IMG/VR virus record: IMGVR_UViG_3300020526_000086
Coordinates: 1-41,097 of that record
Direction: 5' to 3' (one strand)
From: a virus
DNA: 41,097 nt
Below are positions 4,262-7,344 of the stretch, piece by piece (the stretch's first letter is position 1; the number at the start of each line of letters is the position of its first letter). The notes under the pieces were generated by a model, which ran no database searches, was not told where the DNA came from, and saw only the letters and a list, made by a program, of their open reading frames with translations. Both the position numbers and the translations under genes were made by a program.

Positions 4262-4518
4262 TGATAAAAATTCTCCATCAAGATTGCGATCCCGAACTTG
4301 CAAATGATCGTAGTTTACCATACACGGCATATCTAGTTAATTATGAAGATGATGGAGTTAAAAAGTATGACATTGTTATTTGTAATAAAAAAATAGATAT
4401 TTTTGATTATTACTGGGACAAGTATAGAGAAGGATTAAAAAATTTTAAACAAAGTGAGGGAAGAACTAATCCAAAACTTTGGGGAGTTCAGGTAAAGGAG
4501 TCTAAAAAGAAAAAATGA
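4261..4518 (+). CDS. Hypothetical 85-residue protein
   Basis: The product is a small alpha/beta protein (LPYTAYLVNYEDDGVKKYDI, then VICNKKIDIFDYYWDKYREG) ending in a basic tail. No motif is recognised. The ATG shares a base with the upstream stop and the stop overlaps the next ATG (ATGA), so the genes at 3499-4697 form one tightly coupled series. Function unknown. Confidence 0.65.
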   Translation: MIKILHQDCDPELANDRSLPYTAYLVNYEDDGVKKYDIVICNKKIDIFDYYWDKYREGLKNFKQSEGRTNPKLWGVQVKESKKKK

Positions 4519-4697
4519 ATGAAGACTTTCAACGTATTCTTAGAGAAGAATTAAAAAAAGAATTTGAAGAACAGATGGGAGTATCTGTTAATCAAACTGA
4601 ACTTAAAAAAGTAATAAAGGAATATAAAAAAATTAAAAAATTCCAAAAGACTTCTTTGTATCAAGTAATGCAAATGGATAAAAAAGAAAAAAAGTAA
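4515..4697 (+). CDS. Hypothetical 60-residue charged helical protein
   Basis: The product is almost entirely charged helix (MNEDFQRILREELKKEFEEQ at the start, then LKKVIKEYKKIKKFQKTS), with a probable short coiled coil. It overlaps its predecessor by four bases and ends inside the left arm of the 12-bp inverted repeat at 4695-4730. It closes the coupled series. Function unknown. Confidence 0.6.
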   Translation: MNEDFQRILREELKKEFEEQMGVSVNQTELKKVIKEYKKIKKFQKTSLYQVMQMDKKEKK

Positions 4698-4730
4698 TTT
4701 CGTAAAATTGTATCAAACTTTACGAAATTA
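4695..4730. repeat. 12-bp perfect inverted repeat before a promoter
   Basis: TAATTTCGTAAA (4695-4706) and TTTACGAAATTA (4719-4730) are exact inverted copies around a 12-base loop. The right arm ends one base before the -35 box of the promoter at 4732-4760. It could be an AT-rich terminator stem of the upstream series (no clear T-run on the plus strand) or a dyad operator for a dimeric regulator. Confidence 0.75.
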
Positions 4731-4731
4731 C

Positions 4732-4760
4732 TTGACTATATACAGCAACGGGTCTAGTAT
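4732..4760 (+). promoter_or_regulatory. sigma70-type promoter of the microprotein operon
   Basis: TTGACT (4732-4737) and TAGTAT (4755-4760) are 17 bases apart, very close to consensus. Transcription would start near 4767, directly before the first aptamer module at 4768, so the transcript would begin with the RNA switch. Confidence 0.8.
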
Positions 4761-4767
4761 GACCCTA

Positions 4768-4851
4768 CGTTCATCAGAGACAACTCTGACGCAAGTAGGA
4801 CGGCGGAACGGAACGTTCATCCCAATGGGACGCAAACCGCCCGAAGGAACG
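4768..4851 (+). promoter_or_regulatory. Tandem glutamine-aptamer-like RNA (glnA / Downstream-peptide type)
   Basis: Two modules lie in a row. Module 1 (4768-4810) has CGTTCATC, a CAGAG/CTCTG hairpin, GACGCAAGTAGG and a closing GAACG. Module 2 (4814-4851) has CGTTCATC, a CCCA/TGGG hairpin, GACGCAAAC, CCGAAG and a closing GAACG. As I recall, the elements CGTTCAYC, GACGNAAGTAGG and CCGAAGGAACG are the conserved core of the glutamine-binding glnA and Downstream-peptide (glutamine-II) RNAs, found in cyanobacteria and cyanophages before short peptide genes, which is the setting here. GGCGG (4802-4806) could also pair with CCGCC (4837-4841) across the modules. Module 2 departs from GNAAGTAGG, so the pair may be one pseudoknotted unit rather than two independent aptamers. 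Confidence 0.8.
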
Positions 4852-4866
4852 GGACCTAAAAATCTC

Positions 4867-4882
4867 ATTTCTTTGGAGAAAT
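4867..4882 (+). promoter_or_regulatory. Hairpin over the ribosome-binding site of the first microprotein
   Basis: ATTTCT (4867-4872) and AGAAAT (4877-4882) are perfect inverted copies around TTGG. The Shine-Dalgarno GGAG (4875-4878) lies in the loop and right arm, eight bases before the ATG at 4887. It could act as the expression platform of the upstream RNA switch. Confidence 0.45.
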
Positions 4883-4886
4883 CCTC

Positions 4887-5024
4887 ATGGCTAAAGTAGT
4901 ATATCGGGGCATCGAATATGATACTCAGAAACGTATTGAGTACCAACAACAAATGATGCAACAACCCCAACAATACAACGAAACCTATCGTGGTATTAAG
5001 TTTGTAAAAGAGGGGCATAAGTGA
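4887..5024 (+). CDS. DUF4278-like microprotein (45 residues)
   Basis: The product begins MAKVVYRGIEYD and ends with TYRGIKFVKEGHK, separated by a Gln/Met-rich stretch. The repeated YRG-(I/V)-x-(Y/F) motif is the signature of DUF4278, a family of short cyanobacterial and cyanophage proteins of unknown function. The gene lies directly downstream of the tandem aptamer, which is the usual position of Downstream-peptide genes. Its TGA overlaps the next ATG. In glutamine-responsive cyanobacterial systems, peptides of this kind have been linked to nitrogen status, so a role in tuning host nitrogen metabolism is plausible but unproven. Confidence 0.8.
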   Translation: MAKVVYRGIEYDTQKRIEYQQQMMQQPQQYNETYRGIKFVKEGHK

Positions 5025-5119
5025 TGAAAAAACTTAATGTGCTTCAATTAATTAAAGAGCAAAAGCAGAAAGAGCAACGTCGTCATGAAGCACTTCTTGT
5101 AAATGCAGGAGCAAAATAA
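5024..5119 (+). CDS. Microprotein of 31 residues
   Basis: The ATG overlaps the previous stop (ATGA) and the frame ends at TAA 5117-5119, where the next ATG begins. The product (MKKLNVLQLIKEQKQKEQRR, then HEALLVNAGAK) is one charged amphipathic helix. Its place in a chain of four overlapping start/stop junctions is the main evidence that it is translated. Function unknown. Confidence 0.55.
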   Translation: MKKLNVLQLIKEQKQKEQRRHEALLVNAGAK

Positions 5120-5205
5120 TGCTTCAATTTATTGTTACCTCTAGTGCAACTATTGTATTAACAACTATTTTATTATCCGTTTATATTCAATGGTTATATA
5201 AATGA
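5119..5205 (+). CDS. Membrane micropeptide of 28 residues
   Basis: The ATG shares a base with the previous TAA, and the TGA overlaps the next ATG. The product is essentially one transmembrane helix (FIVTSSATIVLTTILLSVYI) with a short WLYK end. It may sit in the plasma or thylakoid membrane. Function unknown. Confidence 0.5.
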   Translation: MLQFIVTSSATIVLTTILLSVYIQWLYK

Positions 5206-5372
5206 TGGATTATCACTACCATTCGGATGATATTGATAAAGATAACAGACCACCTGCTTGTTATCAATTAACTTATAGGGGATGCAAATATTGGTCTTGC
5301 TATAAAATACATCTTCGAGAATGGTTTGAAAAAGTCTTAACTATAGATCCAATATTTAATAAGAGGAGTTGA
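5202..5372 (+). CDS. Microprotein of 56 residues with a YRG motif
   Basis: The product begins MMDYHYHSDDIDKDNRPPAC and contains LTYRGCKYWSCY, resembling the LTYRG(V)xY start of DUF4278 domains, then a Trp-containing helix (HLREWFEKVLTIDPIF). It is the last gene of the coupled chain of four, and its stop lies in the loop of the terminator at 5362-5388. The two flanking members of the operon thus share a YRG motif, suggesting related or cooperating peptides. Four Cys/His-rich positions could bind metal. Function unknown. Confidence 0.6.
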   Translation: MMDYHYHSDDIDKDNRPPACYQLTYRGCKYWSCYKIHLREWFEKVLTIDPIFNKRS

Positions 5373-5388
5373 CTACTCCTCTTTTTTT
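5362..5388 (+). terminator. Intrinsic terminator of the microprotein operon
   Basis: AGAGGAGT (5362-5369) and ACTCCTCT (5375-5382) form a perfect 8-bp stem with a TGACT loop, followed by seven T residues. The stop codon of the last microprotein lies in the loop. The unit from promoter 4732 to terminator 5388 is complete. Confidence 0.92.
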
Positions 5389-5397
5389 GTGTAAAAT
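5369..5397 (+). promoter_or_regulatory. sigma70-type promoter overlapping the terminator
   Basis: TTGACT (5369-5374) lies in the terminator loop and TAAAAT (5392-5397) follows at a spacing of exactly 17 bases. It would start transcription near 5404, shortly before the small gene at 5420 and thyX. Confidence 0.6.
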
Positions 5398-5419
5398 GAT
5401 GTGAGAAAGTACTTTTCTT

Positions 5420-5596
5420 ATGGACAAAGACAAACTAAAATTAATTGTCCGTAATCTAGAGCTTTTGATTGATTCTTTAAAATCAGAAATTTATTCTGAT
5501 GCAGATTCTTACAAGAATCTAAATTTAAAAGAACCAAAATTGACAGATTACGATGAAGTTTTTTATGACGGAGATGATGATGGATACCCAGACTAA
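5420..5596 (+). CDS. Small acidic protein upstream of thyX (58 residues)
   Basis: The product starts MDKDKLKLIVRNLELLIDSL, a leucine-rich helix, and ends in an acidic tail (DYDEVFYDGDDDGYPD). Short proteins with this helix plus acidic end are found in front of thyX in other cyanophages as far as I recall. The gene follows the promoter at 5369-5397 and overlaps the start of thyX by 17 bases in another frame, so the two are probably translated together. Function unknown. Confidence 0.7.
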   Translation: MDKDKLKLIVRNLELLIDSLKSEIYSDADSYKNLNLKEPKLTDYDEVFYDGDDDGYPD

Positions 5597-6308
5597 ATCA
5601 ATTGTTAAACTGATTTCTGTTACTCAAGGTGCAGGAGAACTTGCAGGAAAATCTGCACAAGAAGTGATTACTTATACTGCCCGTGTAAGCAACCCAAGTA
5701 ACCAACTTAAATTTGATACTGCTGCTGGACTTCTACGTTATTGTATTAAGCAAAATCATTGGTCTATCTTTGAGCAAGCAGATATGACTCTTGAGATTAA
5801 TACTACTAGAGGTATCGCAGCTCAAGTGCTTCGTCATAGGTCCTTTACATTTCAGGAATTTTCACAACGTTATGCAGACACGAAGCTTCTGACTGATCTT
5901 CCCGAGGTTCCTGAACTCCGTAGGCAGGATGAAAAGAATCGTCAGAACTCAACCAATGATCTGGATGAGCATACACGAGAGAAGTTTGAGGGAATGATTG
6001 AGCAGCACTTTGAAGAGGCACAACGTCTTTACGATAAGATGCTTGAAAAGGGGGTTGCAAAGGAATGTGCAAGGTTTGTGCTTCCACTCGCAACACCAAC
6101 AAGAATTTACATGAAAGGCTCAGTAAGGTCATGGATTCATTATATCGATTTGCGTTCTGCCCATGGAACCCAAAAAGAACACATAGACATTGCAGAAGCA
6201 GCACGATGTATCTTTATCTGCCAATTCCCTGATATTGCTGAGGCACTTAGTTGGGAAGCAGAGAACTGCCCAGAATGCTCTGATGCACCCTCTATTACTA
6301 TTGAATAA
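5580..6308 (+). CDS. thyX: Flavin-dependent thymidylate synthase ThyX
   Basis: ThyX methylates dUMP to dTMP using methylene-tetrahydrofolate, FAD and NADPH. The family signature RHRxxSxxxxSxR appears as RHRSFTFQEFSQR, with Thr at the first Ser position. The downstream block ARFVLPLATPTRIYMKGSVR is also typical, as is HIDIAEAARCIFICQFPDIAE near the end. Length (242 residues) is normal. Several in-frame ATGs exist (5553, 5574, 5577, 5580); 5580 is chosen because GGAG (5570-5573) lies six bases before it. It supplies dTTP for phage DNA and is a common cyanophage gene. Confidence 0.95.
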   Translation: MDTQTKSIVKLISVTQGAGELAGKSAQEVITYTARVSNPSNQLKFDTAAGLLRYCIKQNHWSIFEQADMTLEINTTRGIAAQVLRHRSFTFQEFSQRYADTKLLTDLPEVPELRRQDEKNRQNSTNDLDEHTREKFEGMIEQHFEEAQRLYDKMLEKGVAKECARFVLPLATPTRIYMKGSVRSWIHYIDLRSAHGTQKEHIDIAEAARCIFICQFPDIAEALSWEAENCPECSDAPSITIE

Positions 6309-6311
6309 ATA
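6304..6311 (+). promoter_or_regulatory. T4-type late promoter-like box
   Basis: AATAAATA matches the NATAAATA late-promoter motif described for T4-like cyanophages and lies 24 bases before the ATG at 6335. The downstream genes are mostly replication genes, so it may be a chance match in AT-rich DNA. Confidence 0.35.
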
Positions 6312-6334
6312 TTTTTATCGTTATTTCATAACAT

Positions 6335-6583
6335 ATGGCAACATACCCTGTTATTCATAAAGAAACTGGTGAACAAAAAGAAGTGACGATGAGTGTTCAC
6401 GAATGGGACCAGTGGAAAAAAGAAAATCCAGATTGGGATAGAGATTGGTCTGACCCAGCAACTTGCCCTGGAAGTGGGGAAGTTGGTGAATGGAAAGACA
6501 AGCTTTCGAAATCAAAACCAGGATGGAATGAAGTTCTAACTAGAGCATCTAAGATGCCCGGTGCTACTGTGAGGAAAAATTAA
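6335..6583 (+). CDS. FmdB-like small regulatory protein without the zinc cysteines
   Basis: The 82-residue product begins MATYPVIHKETGEQKEVTMS and has PDWDRDWSDPATCPG and a conserved-looking end, PGWNEVLTRASKMPGATVRK. T4-like phages carry proteins of this layout related to FmdB-type zinc ribbons: an ETGE strand pair, an ENPD segment and a GWNEVL..A end. Only one Cys is present, so no zinc ribbon can form. It overlaps the start of phoH by one base. A regulatory role is only inferred from the family. Confidence 0.6.
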   Translation: MATYPVIHKETGEQKEVTMSVHEWDQWKKENPDWDRDWSDPATCPGSGEVGEWKDKLSKSKPGWNEVLTRASKMPGATVRKN

Positions 6584-7344
6584 TGGCAAGAAAGAGAAGA
6601 AATGGTGATCAACCAATTGGTGTTGGTATGACTGCTAGGCAAATGAAAAGGAGAAAACCGATAAGTTCGGAACTGCTTATAGATATAGAACCTTTAACAG
6701 AAAATCAAAAAAAGTTATTCCAATCATATTCTGAAGGAAAACATTTGGTTGCTTATGGTGCTGCAGGAACTGGAAAAACATTTATTAGTCTTTATAATGC
6801 ACTAAAAGAAGTTCTTAATCAAATTACTCCATACGAACAAATTTATGTTGTTCGTTCTTTAGTTGCCACAAGAGAAATTGGATTTCTTCCTGGAGATCAT
6901 GAAGATAAATCATCTCTTTACCAAATTCCATATAAGAACATGGTAAAATACATGTTCCAACTTCCATCTGAAACTGATTTTGAAATGCTTTATGGCAGTT
7001 TGAAGCAGCAAGAAACAGTCAAGTTTTGGAGTACATCTTTTGTTCGTGGAACTACGTTAGATAATTCAATTATTATTGTTGATGAATTTCAAAATATGAA
7101 TTTTCACGAATTGGATTCTATCATCACTCGTGTTGGAGAAAATTCAAAGATTATTTTTTGTGGTGATGCAACTCAAAGTGATTTAACTAAAACCAACGAA
7201 AGAAATGGTATTAGTGATTTTATGAATATCTTGAGAAAAATGCCATCCTTTGATATAATTGAATTTGGTATTGAAGATATTGTTCGTTCTGGACTTGTTA
7301 AAGAATATCTAATTGCAAAAATTGAATCTGGTCTGAATGTCTGA
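6583..7344 (+). CDS. phoH: PhoH-like ATPase
   Basis: The product (253 residues) is a PhoH-family P-loop ATPase: Walker A GAAGTGKTF (residues 59-67) and Walker B IIIVDEFQNM (163-172) with the Asp-Glu pair at 167-168, then a sensor region CGDATQSDL. A basic amino-terminal tail (MARKRRNGDQ) precedes the domain. PhoH is one of the most widespread cyanophage genes. Host homologues are induced by phosphate limitation, and the domain resembles helicases with RNA-related activity, but the phage role is unknown. It sits in a block with exonuclease, gp33 and gp59, arguing for a nucleic-acid function here. Confidence 0.95.
   Translation: MARKRRNGDQPIGVGMTARQMKRRKPISSELLIDIEPLTENQKKLFQSYSEGKHLVAYGAAGTGKTFISLYNALKEVLNQITPYEQIYVVRSLVATREIGFLPGDHEDKSSLYQIPYKNMVKYMFQLPSETDFEMLYGSLKQQETVKFWSTSFVRGTTLDNSIIIVDEFQNMNFHELDSIITRVGENSKIIFCGDATQSDLTKTNERNGISDFMNILRKMPSFDIIEFGIEDIVRSGLVKEYLIAKIESGLNV

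Follow-up and report, generated by a model that had tools for sequence, protein, structure and literature searches.

A candidate glnA-type glutamine riboswitch with a nested half-copy in a cyanophage-like virus record, and relatives that probably carry a small gene within the aptamer

Introduction

The IMG/VR virus record IMGVR_UViG_3300020526_000086, analysed over its full 41,097 bases (the window), carries T4-like cyanophage genes and, at positions 4732–5388, a compact unit composed of a promoter, a structured RNA leader, four very small genes and a terminator. An earlier note, made from the sequence of the window, had read this unit as a glutamine switch with tandem aptamers, and every part that it named was located where it had been placed. 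What kind of RNA is this leader, and what would it do for the genes behind it? We propose that the leader is probably one composite glnA (type I) glutamine riboswitch, in which a glutamine-dependent switch at helix P1 would raise translation of the operon downstream, whose first gene encodes a DUF4278-type protein. Comparison among related loci supports the fold and its conservation, a coding role for genes 1, 2 and 4, and the placing of gene 1 in its family, as well as the association of that family with the riboswitch in both hosts and phages.

The leader as one probable nested aptamer

In the proposed structure, the enlarged P3 arm of a glnA aptamer would hold a nested, circularly permuted half-copy of the same aptamer (helices P1i and P2i). 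The parts of the leader in the window are as follows.

4768–4772, plus strand: 5′ strand of aptamer helix P1 (CGUUC), pairing with the last GAACG
4774–4789, plus strand: outer P2 hairpin (UCAGAG/CUCUGA)
4788–4797, plus strand: junction J2/3 (GACGCAAGUA), of the glnA-type consensus, from Rfam and own-model alignments
4798–4804, plus strand: 5′ strand of the shared P3 helix (GGACGGC)
4806–4818, plus strand: inner P1i hairpin (GAACG-GAA-CGUUC), the circularly permuted half-copy, from RNAalifold and from compensatory variants in loci L043, L047 and L084
4820–4830, plus strand: inner P2i hairpin (UCCC-AAU-GGGA), the loop that holds a gene in class A relatives
4836–4842, plus strand: 3′ strand of the shared P3 helix (ACCGCCC)
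4843–4851, plus strand: junction J3/1 (GAA) and 3′ strand of P1 (GGAACG)
4841–4876, plus strand: alternative hairpin that takes up the 3′ strand of P1 and the GG of the ribosome-binding site, from the free minimum-free-energy fold
4875–4878, plus strand: ribosome-binding site (GGAG), from the sequence

Relatives were collected from phage genomes and from IMG/VR. A BLASTN search with positions 4690–4900 (E ≤ 1) matched 294 of 50,697 phage records, named as Synechococcus (262), cyanophage (24), Prochlorococcus (6) and marine-virus (2) records. Fourteen phage loci were fetched, with S-CREM1 added later, and 11 of the 14 contain a glutamine-riboswitch match at relaxed thresholds (L002 and L004 above the cut-off); a pattern scan of IMG/VR provided at least 120 stretches. 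Simple patterns parsed 131 leaders from these two sources into class A (60), class B (40, window-like) and class C (31). On re-reading, 21 of the 31 class C leaders fitted a single-aptamer pattern, including L045 and L115 with a large P3 insert, and part of the remainder were A or B forms that the pattern had missed; of seven class C rows re-read, L081 and L103 had no 3′ half.

In the covariance scan that the earlier note had proposed, the gathering cut-offs were missed; at relaxed thresholds, RF01739 and RF01704 match within 4768–4855. RF01739 reaches 31.5 bits (E 3.6e-5; cut-off 35) at 4812–4855 and, more weakly, 17.5 bits (E 0.28) at 4768–4810, and RF01704 reaches 23.2 bits (cut-off 33) at 4811–4853. 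A covariance model was built from 33 of 36 unique leaders (set A2), leaving out the window as an independent test, L010 with a junction one base longer, and L082, which is very near the window. This model finds a single structure at 4766–4851 that takes in both modules (77.5 bits, E 1.1e-18), its sole match in the 41 kb of the window up to E 10. The outer aptamer has the P1/P2/P3 three-way junction of RF01739 with its GACGGAAGUA and GAAGGAACG junctions; the GACGCAAGUA of the window is one base off the consensus, as it is in many relatives.

The nested arrangement is supported by helix P3. In class B leaders, the bases that follow GACGCAAGUA in the first module can pair with those that precede GAAGGAACG in the second module, with strand pairs that differ among loci (GGACGGC/ACCGCCC in the window; AGUCGC/ACGACU, AGUCAC/AUGACU and GGCUAACGC/ACGUUGAGCU in others). 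For the 16 unique segment pairs of class B, 2 of 20,000 permutations pair equally well; the nine unique pairs of class A alone give a weaker result (288 of 20,000), and the 25 pairs of both classes together give 0 of 50,000. Across A2, 96.7 percent of the cells of the nested structure are paired and 70 are double-change cells, compared with 18.0 in shuffles (0 of 500 as high), while P3 alone contributes 16 compared with 4.0 (0 of 500 as high); slid controls reach maxima of 6 for the nested structure and 3 for P3. When RNAalifold is run without a preset structure, it joins the first CGUUC to the last GAACG, and the second CGUUC to the first GAACG; P3 is absent from its prediction. Ahead of the last GGAACG, each of the 33 aligned relatives has GAA or AAA at the junction, which agrees with the glnA consensus and had not been demanded by the class B pattern; the other consensus junction is uninformative, because the search itself required it. 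In three loci that the class patterns had missed, P1i changes on both sides (CAACG/CGUUG in L047 and L084, AAACG/CGUUU in L043) while the first CGUUC is kept, so that a tandem P1 would lose one of its five pairs; two of the five deviating rows in that comparison, L016 and L091, were mis-parses of the pattern. Finally, RF01739 itself spans the nested layout in three of eight loci, L113 (42.9 bits), L108 (40.9 bits) and L101 (40.2 bits), each above the cut-off of 35 and with 43–52 nucleotides (nt) within P3. In L032 and L085 the same operon follows a single aptamer whose P3 is a plain hairpin, and nearly identical fused proteins lie behind a plain (L094) and a nested (L113) aptamer; therefore, the inner copy seems to have been either inserted into P3 or lost from it.

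The earlier note had seen two aptamer-like modules. They do belong to a leader of the glutamine-riboswitch type, but are better read as halves of one nested aptamer than as aptamers in tandem. Two independent tandem glutamine aptamers, which would give a more digital response, are in our judgement improbable here, though some glnA RNAs are known to occur in tandem, according to the available part of one account (PMC2864571), and Rfam matches each half of the window leader separately. RF01739 likewise parses L021, L116 and L089 as two halves, in L021 with both above the cut-off (39.6 and 38.6 bits). However, two complete aptamers in a row are not found in the window: the first half lacks the GAA junction, the second lacks the GUA bases, and the P3 strands pair with each other. 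By contrast, L112 is a true tandem in which both copies have complete junctions. The compensatory changes seen in L043, L047 and L084 agree with P1i but not with the P1 of a first tandem aptamer, and in hand-drawn folds of the window the full tandem (−17.4 kcal/mol) is 7.4 kcal/mol less stable than the nested form (−24.8 kcal/mol). Tandem aptamers were thus rejected as the principal interpretation on P3 cross-pairing, P3 covariation and the P1i compensatory changes, and are kept as a rival because of the two-half Rfam parses.

Several observations, including those two-half parses, weigh against the composite riboswitch. Across the 41,097-base window, all Rfam families stay below their gathering scores. 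RF01739 parses L010 and L256 as one half, and the first halves of L002 (35.6 bits) and L004 (35.1 bits) score above the cut-off alone, which leaves room for independent folding of the 5′ half. Neither P1 nor P1i varies within A2, partly because the search patterns demanded those letters, and hence they provide no covariation there. The 9-nt P3 helices of class B contain A-C and C-A mismatches at every third position, in fixed places. The inner half lacks the consensus bases GUA and GAA, which makes a second ligand site doubtful.

Apart from the nested leaders, glnA aptamers with a different large P3 insert occur in L034, L035, L114 and L115; L034, L035 and L115 score 45–47 bits, and L114 has no match at E 0.1; YRG proteins are encoded downstream of these aptamers in L035 and L115.

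Folding energies and the proposed direction of the switch

In the proposed mechanism, plentiful glutamine would be expected to stabilise P1, formed by the first CGUUC and the last GAACG. This helix would be mutually exclusive with the alternative hairpin, in which that GAACG strand and part of the ribosome-binding site are taken up, a hairpin that the earlier note had described and that folding predicts as well; therefore, translation of the DUF4278 operon would be expected to rise. We infer in this scheme the ligand and the ON direction, as well as control by NtcA and the action of the peptides.

Energy calculations give mixed results. The free optimum of the window leader is the sequestered fold (−32.9 kcal/mol), with −30.9 kcal/mol when the P1 of a first tandem aptamer is forced and −25.2 kcal/mol when nested P1 and P3 are forced. 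Across 36 leaders (L095 having been dropped for want of a start codon within reach), forcing P1 costs 2.3 kcal/mol for the nested and 2.5 kcal/mol for the first tandem helix, the nested one being cheaper in 21. The ribosome-binding site becomes more accessible by over 0.1 in the nested state in 10 of the 36 and less accessible by that much in none, and in the window it does not open (0.37 to 0.32). Its accessibility was rejected as proof of ON switching, being non-uniform among the leaders and absent in the window. Our best guess for the direction is nevertheless ON, because host switches of this kind turn genes on with nitrogen or glutamine, as stated in the available parts of two accounts (PMC6316151, PMC11288750).

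The near balance of the two P1 helices accords with a bistable RNA, in which the first GAACG would pair either with the first CGUUC, giving a small aptamer, or with the second CGUUC, giving the nested form, and glutamine would shift the balance. Both folds are available at about equal cost in the 36 leaders, the window fold with the first tandem P1 lies near the optimum, and the 5′ half alone exceeds the RF01739 cut-off in the two loci named above. On the other hand, L043, L047 and L084 can make the first fold only with a mismatch, yet retain the rest of the structure, and we regard bistability as unlikely, albeit the most serious of the competing explanations. Far less credible to us is that the leader serves mainly as a protein-binding or processing element whose riboswitch likeness was inherited without ligand binding. 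The large P3 insertion and an expression platform that is not clear in the window would suit such an element, but the GAA or AAA junction shared by all the aligned relatives speaks against it.

Class A relatives and the probable gene within the aptamer

In class A, the first small gene comes before the 3′ half of this aptamer. Both halves were found in 58 of 58 testable leaders, 138–245 nt apart, after the 3′-half pattern had been loosened from a stricter version that found both halves in 47 of 64 rows; five of 63 rows were too short for the count, L003, L004 and L012 were added by hand, and the 64th row, L005, could not be parsed. Over both strands of these loci (1.94 million bases), the 3′-half pattern has 101 occurrences near leaders and a single one elsewhere.

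The gene and the aptamer are joined at a precise place. In 53 of the 58 leaders the stop codon of the inner gene ends two bases into the GAA junction (P3/GAA); in the five exceptions it lies 15 nt (L093, L129) or 50 nt (L134) before this point, or overruns it by 15 nt (L003) or 67 nt (L121). L134 (6500–6950) contains three modules and one gene, and its P3 strands do not match. The arms of P2i covary across the inner gene: for 27 unique pairs, none of 20,000 permutations does as well. Full exchanges include GAUUAUG/CAUAAUC in L121 and CCCC/GGGG in L071 and L104; in the latter two, D gives way to G in the protein tail in step with the pairing. In the same 53 of 58 leaders, the C-terminal tails of the inner proteins (for example DAND, DAHD, AKAD and GAND) are encoded by the 3′ half of the aptamer. 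Over the last four codons of 24 inner genes of the same kind, the proportion of synonymous differences (pS) is 0.00 and that of nonsynonymous differences (pN) 0.045, compared with a pS of 0.67 and a pN/pS of 0.46 in the gene body; the absence of synonymous difference is as expected if the RNA fixes these codons. The start codon of the inner gene directly follows the aptamer arms and pairs with them in many loci. In L005 (phage AG-345-L05, 1980–2620) there is a gene in each P2 loop, the first of which ends in the UAA of GCAAGUAA. An attempt to show by clustering that the inner genes belong to unrelated families was abandoned, as loose single linkage merged 57 of 58 and proves nothing.

From these comparisons we consider it highly probable that class A leaders carry a complete small gene in the P2i loop of the nested aptamer. 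The layout is present in the isolates S-RIM2, S-H38, S-SSM4, P-SSM7, P-SSM2, S-SRM01, S-SZBM1 and DSL-LC02, and the inner gene is absent from the window and from S-PM2, which suggests that the window carries the gene-less form of a riboswitch whose aptamer serves as a gene container. Reading the inner gene to its stop codon would have to unfold the aptamer, and the folded aptamer would hide the start of the inner gene; therefore, the RNA would be a toggle. It is tempting to combine the layout with a glutamine-driven toggle between the inner gene and the downstream DUF4278 operon, a joint proposal that we put forward tentatively and with some reserve. We know of no other riboswitch with a whole small gene inside its sensor. 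Introns with genes in their loops and discontinuous hammerhead ribozymes also place a long stretch within a structured RNA; class A differs from them in being a riboswitch, and in having the last codons and the stop codon of the gene inside the aptamer.

Promoter region

The elements upstream of the leader are the following.

4732–4760, plus strand: sigma-70-type promoter TTGACT-N17-TAGTAT (TTGACT at 4732–4737, TAGTAT at 4755–4760)
4710–4723, plus strand: NtcA-type box GTA-N8-TAC, an exact match 58 nt upstream of the first base of the aptamer
4692–4733, strand-neutral: 18-pair inverted repeat around the NtcA box, with a T run on the minus strand only
4750–4765, plus strand: dyad GGGTC-TAGTAT-GACCC straddling the −10 box

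Transcription in the infected cell would start from the sigma-70-type promoter, with the NtcA box upstream. The promoter is present as the earlier note had it, and a like promoter lies at the same distance in many relatives; a promoter scan alone is at chance level (seven promoter-like sites in 4400–6400, 6.8 in shuffles). GTA-N8-TAC occurs 13 times in the window compared with 6.6 by chance, and 1 of 100 shuffles reaches 13. The box has a fixed place, as in NtcA-controlled promoters: 59 of 115 dereplicated leaders have one between −63 and −52 (shuffle mean 0.48), with 29 of 54 in class A, 27 of 33 in class B and 3 of 28 in class C. The spacing between an NtcA box and the −10 box is usually 22–23 nt. 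In the window it is 31 nt, and activation by NtcA is therefore uncertain. NtcA boxes in cyanophages are already known, as the available part of one report states (PMC3037559).

Of 70 leader promoters, 50 have a dyad of at least five pairs with the −10 box at its centre; among other promoter-like sites in the same loci the count is 9 of 377, and one of these nine, in L004, is a leader promoter as well. A stem of at least five pairs is found in the last 34 nt in 92 of 115 leaders (25.7 in shuffles); in a control stretch lying further upstream, where the palindromic NtcA boxes are, 51 of 115 leaders have one. The arms of the dyad vary in sequence yet remain complementary across relatives, and the dyad may be a DNA hairpin or a hairpin in read-through RNA.

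Two further features were seen here. The inverted repeat at 4692–4733 reads as a minus-strand terminator. The −35 box continues at 4732–4743 into TATATA (TAAATA in many relatives), resembling a T4 late promoter, from which an RNA would start just ahead of the −10 dyad; as the motif is a common one, this is offered as an idea only.

The four small genes and their products

The remaining parts of the unit are the genes and their terminator.

4887–5024, plus strand: gene 1, 45 amino acids, DUF4278-type, with two YRG motifs
5024–5119, plus strand: gene 2, 31 amino acids from ATG, basic and helix-like, fused to a YRG protein in relatives
5119–5205, plus strand: gene 3, 28 amino acids, with one hydrophobic stretch
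5202–5372, plus strand: gene 4, 56 amino acids, with the motif QLTYRGCKYW
5361–5383, plus strand: intrinsic terminator, a 9-bp stem followed by a T run

The terminator and the four overlapping genes (overlaps of 1, 1 and 4 nt) are as the earlier note had described them. Pooled pN/pS is 0.20 for gene 1 (15 sequences), 0.25 for gene 2 (15), 0.58 for gene 3 (8), a weak value, and 0.25 for gene 4 (4), the relatives having been chosen by motifs of genes 1, 2 and 4, which biases the ratios downward. Genes 1, 2 and 4 look to be coding and under purifying selection, whereas the coding of gene 3 is uncertain. The four-gene order recurs in L065, L079 and L085, and gene 4 matches 38 phage records at E 1 or better, 37 of them from cyanophages.

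Judged by profile comparison, gene 1 belongs to the DUF4278 (“YRG”) family. It matches PF14105 with 19.5 bits (E 0.0013), below the Pfam gathering score of 25.3, and phrog_5049 at 3e-11. All 27 scanned first-gene proteins, the one in the window included, have a DUF4278 match with E no higher than 1 (best 1.8e-13); the same holds for 13 of 13 host proteins, and the phage gene 1 profile matches the host DUF4278 profile at 95.5 percent (E 1.4e-8). The earlier view that three of the four peptides lack a family stands for genes 2 and 3, while gene 4 carries a YRG motif. Where a locus has enough sequence, a YRG/YKG gene lies downstream of the leader in all 53 of class A, in 36 of 37 of class B and in 20 of 26 of class C, compared with 18 of 629 control stretches; with a stricter motif the counts are 53, 36 and 19, compared with 2 of 629. 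YRG micro-proteins of just 16–17 amino acids were also seen behind single glnA aptamers in L040, L042, L062, L087 and L117.

The available part of one study describes DUF4278 as the N-terminal part of the glutamine synthetase inactivating factor IF17, which consists of DUF4278 and an IF7-like tail (PMC6316151). Since DUF4278 covers this N-terminal part, it is plausible, by analogy, that the peptides retune host nitrogen control, as the earlier note had supposed; they would act on host nitrogen metabolism as the riboswitch-controlled DUF4278 proteins of the hosts do. Genes 1 and 2 might represent a split IF17-like factor, given the basic character of gene 2, its overlap with gene 1, and its fusion in L113 and L094, where it follows one YRG motif. 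However, profile comparison did not find the inhibitory C-terminal (IF7-like) part of IF17 in the gene 2 relatives (probability 0.2 percent), nothing in gene 2 corresponds to the arginines that are invariant in the tail alignment, and a Pfam scan of the gene 2 relatives gave no match. Gene 2 was accordingly rejected as an IF7-like tail, and a split IF17 appears very improbable. A search of solved structures with gene 2 returned a single chance hit (Mre11, E 1.4). An NCBIfam search yielded no useful match. Gene 2 relatives are fused to YRG proteins in both orders (L113, L094, L009, L027 and others), and therefore a shared task is suggested.

Relation to known glutamine riboswitches

The leader resembles the glnA RNA (type I, RF01739) in its succession of CGUUCAUC, P2 hairpin, GACG(C/G)AAGUA, P3 and GAAGGAACG, and in its link with DUF4278; unlike RF01739, its P3 is enlarged by the nested, circularly permuted half-copy, and the window scores below the Rfam cut-off. 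The Glutamine-II (Downstream-peptide, RF01704) riboswitches of picocyanobacteria likewise stand ahead of a YRG/DUF4278 protein with an NtcA box nearby. In the host set (17 riboswitches parsed out of 30 fetched loci), all 17 precede such a protein of 33–67 amino acids, and the NtcA box lies 17–21 nt upstream; RF01704 is found in 54 of 388 genomes of the class. They differ from the phage leaders in their core (GCAGUU), in the position of the NtcA box (−17 to −21, compared with −58 in the phage), and in that none of the 17 has a split 3′ half.

Glutamine riboswitches in cyanophages are already known. The available part of one account annotates a glnA riboswitch in cyanophage S-CREM1 (PMC9964418), a 99-nt match of 44.0 bits that has the nested layout and stands before a 48-amino-acid YRG protein, whereas our own Rfam scan gave a 57-nt half match of 33.5 bits; neither the nesting nor the DUF4278 gene was found described in that part of the account. 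Phage Melnitz and Prochlorococcus phage AG-345-P14 also bear glutamine riboswitches, that of Melnitz being tied to a tmRNA gene, with no mention of a DUF4278 operon in the part of the account available (PMC9004378). For the nesting, the phage link with DUF4278 and the gene inside the aptamer, no earlier account was found in the available literature searched, with supplements (for example, those of PMC2864571 and PMC9964418) outside the search; a strict search for a gene inside an aptamer also found nothing, which is a weak test. The accounts of DUF4278 in the literature found, as far as their available parts go, concern cyanobacteria, one of them without the word phage.

Thus, cyanophages, which are among the most numerous viruses of the sea, gain a candidate glutamine sensor tied to a family that is riboswitch-controlled in their hosts, with an NtcA box at its promoter. 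How phages read the nitrogen status of the host becomes testable in laboratory pairs such as S-PM2 with Synechococcus WH7803. The known forms of riboswitches would be extended by a nested permuted aptamer, and by a gene that lies inside an aptamer and has its stop codon at the junction, and the nested layout may explain why standard scans score many such leaders below the cut-off or as halves.

Other genes recognised in the window are these.

107–1171: photosystem II D2-like protein, assigned by eye
5553–6308: ThyX
6583–7344: PhoH-like protein, from the likeness of the gene order to S-PM2

In addition, PhotoRC-II RNA motifs occur in two related phage contigs, L116 (1397–1492, 79.5 bits) and L043 (4778–4872, 82.7 bits).

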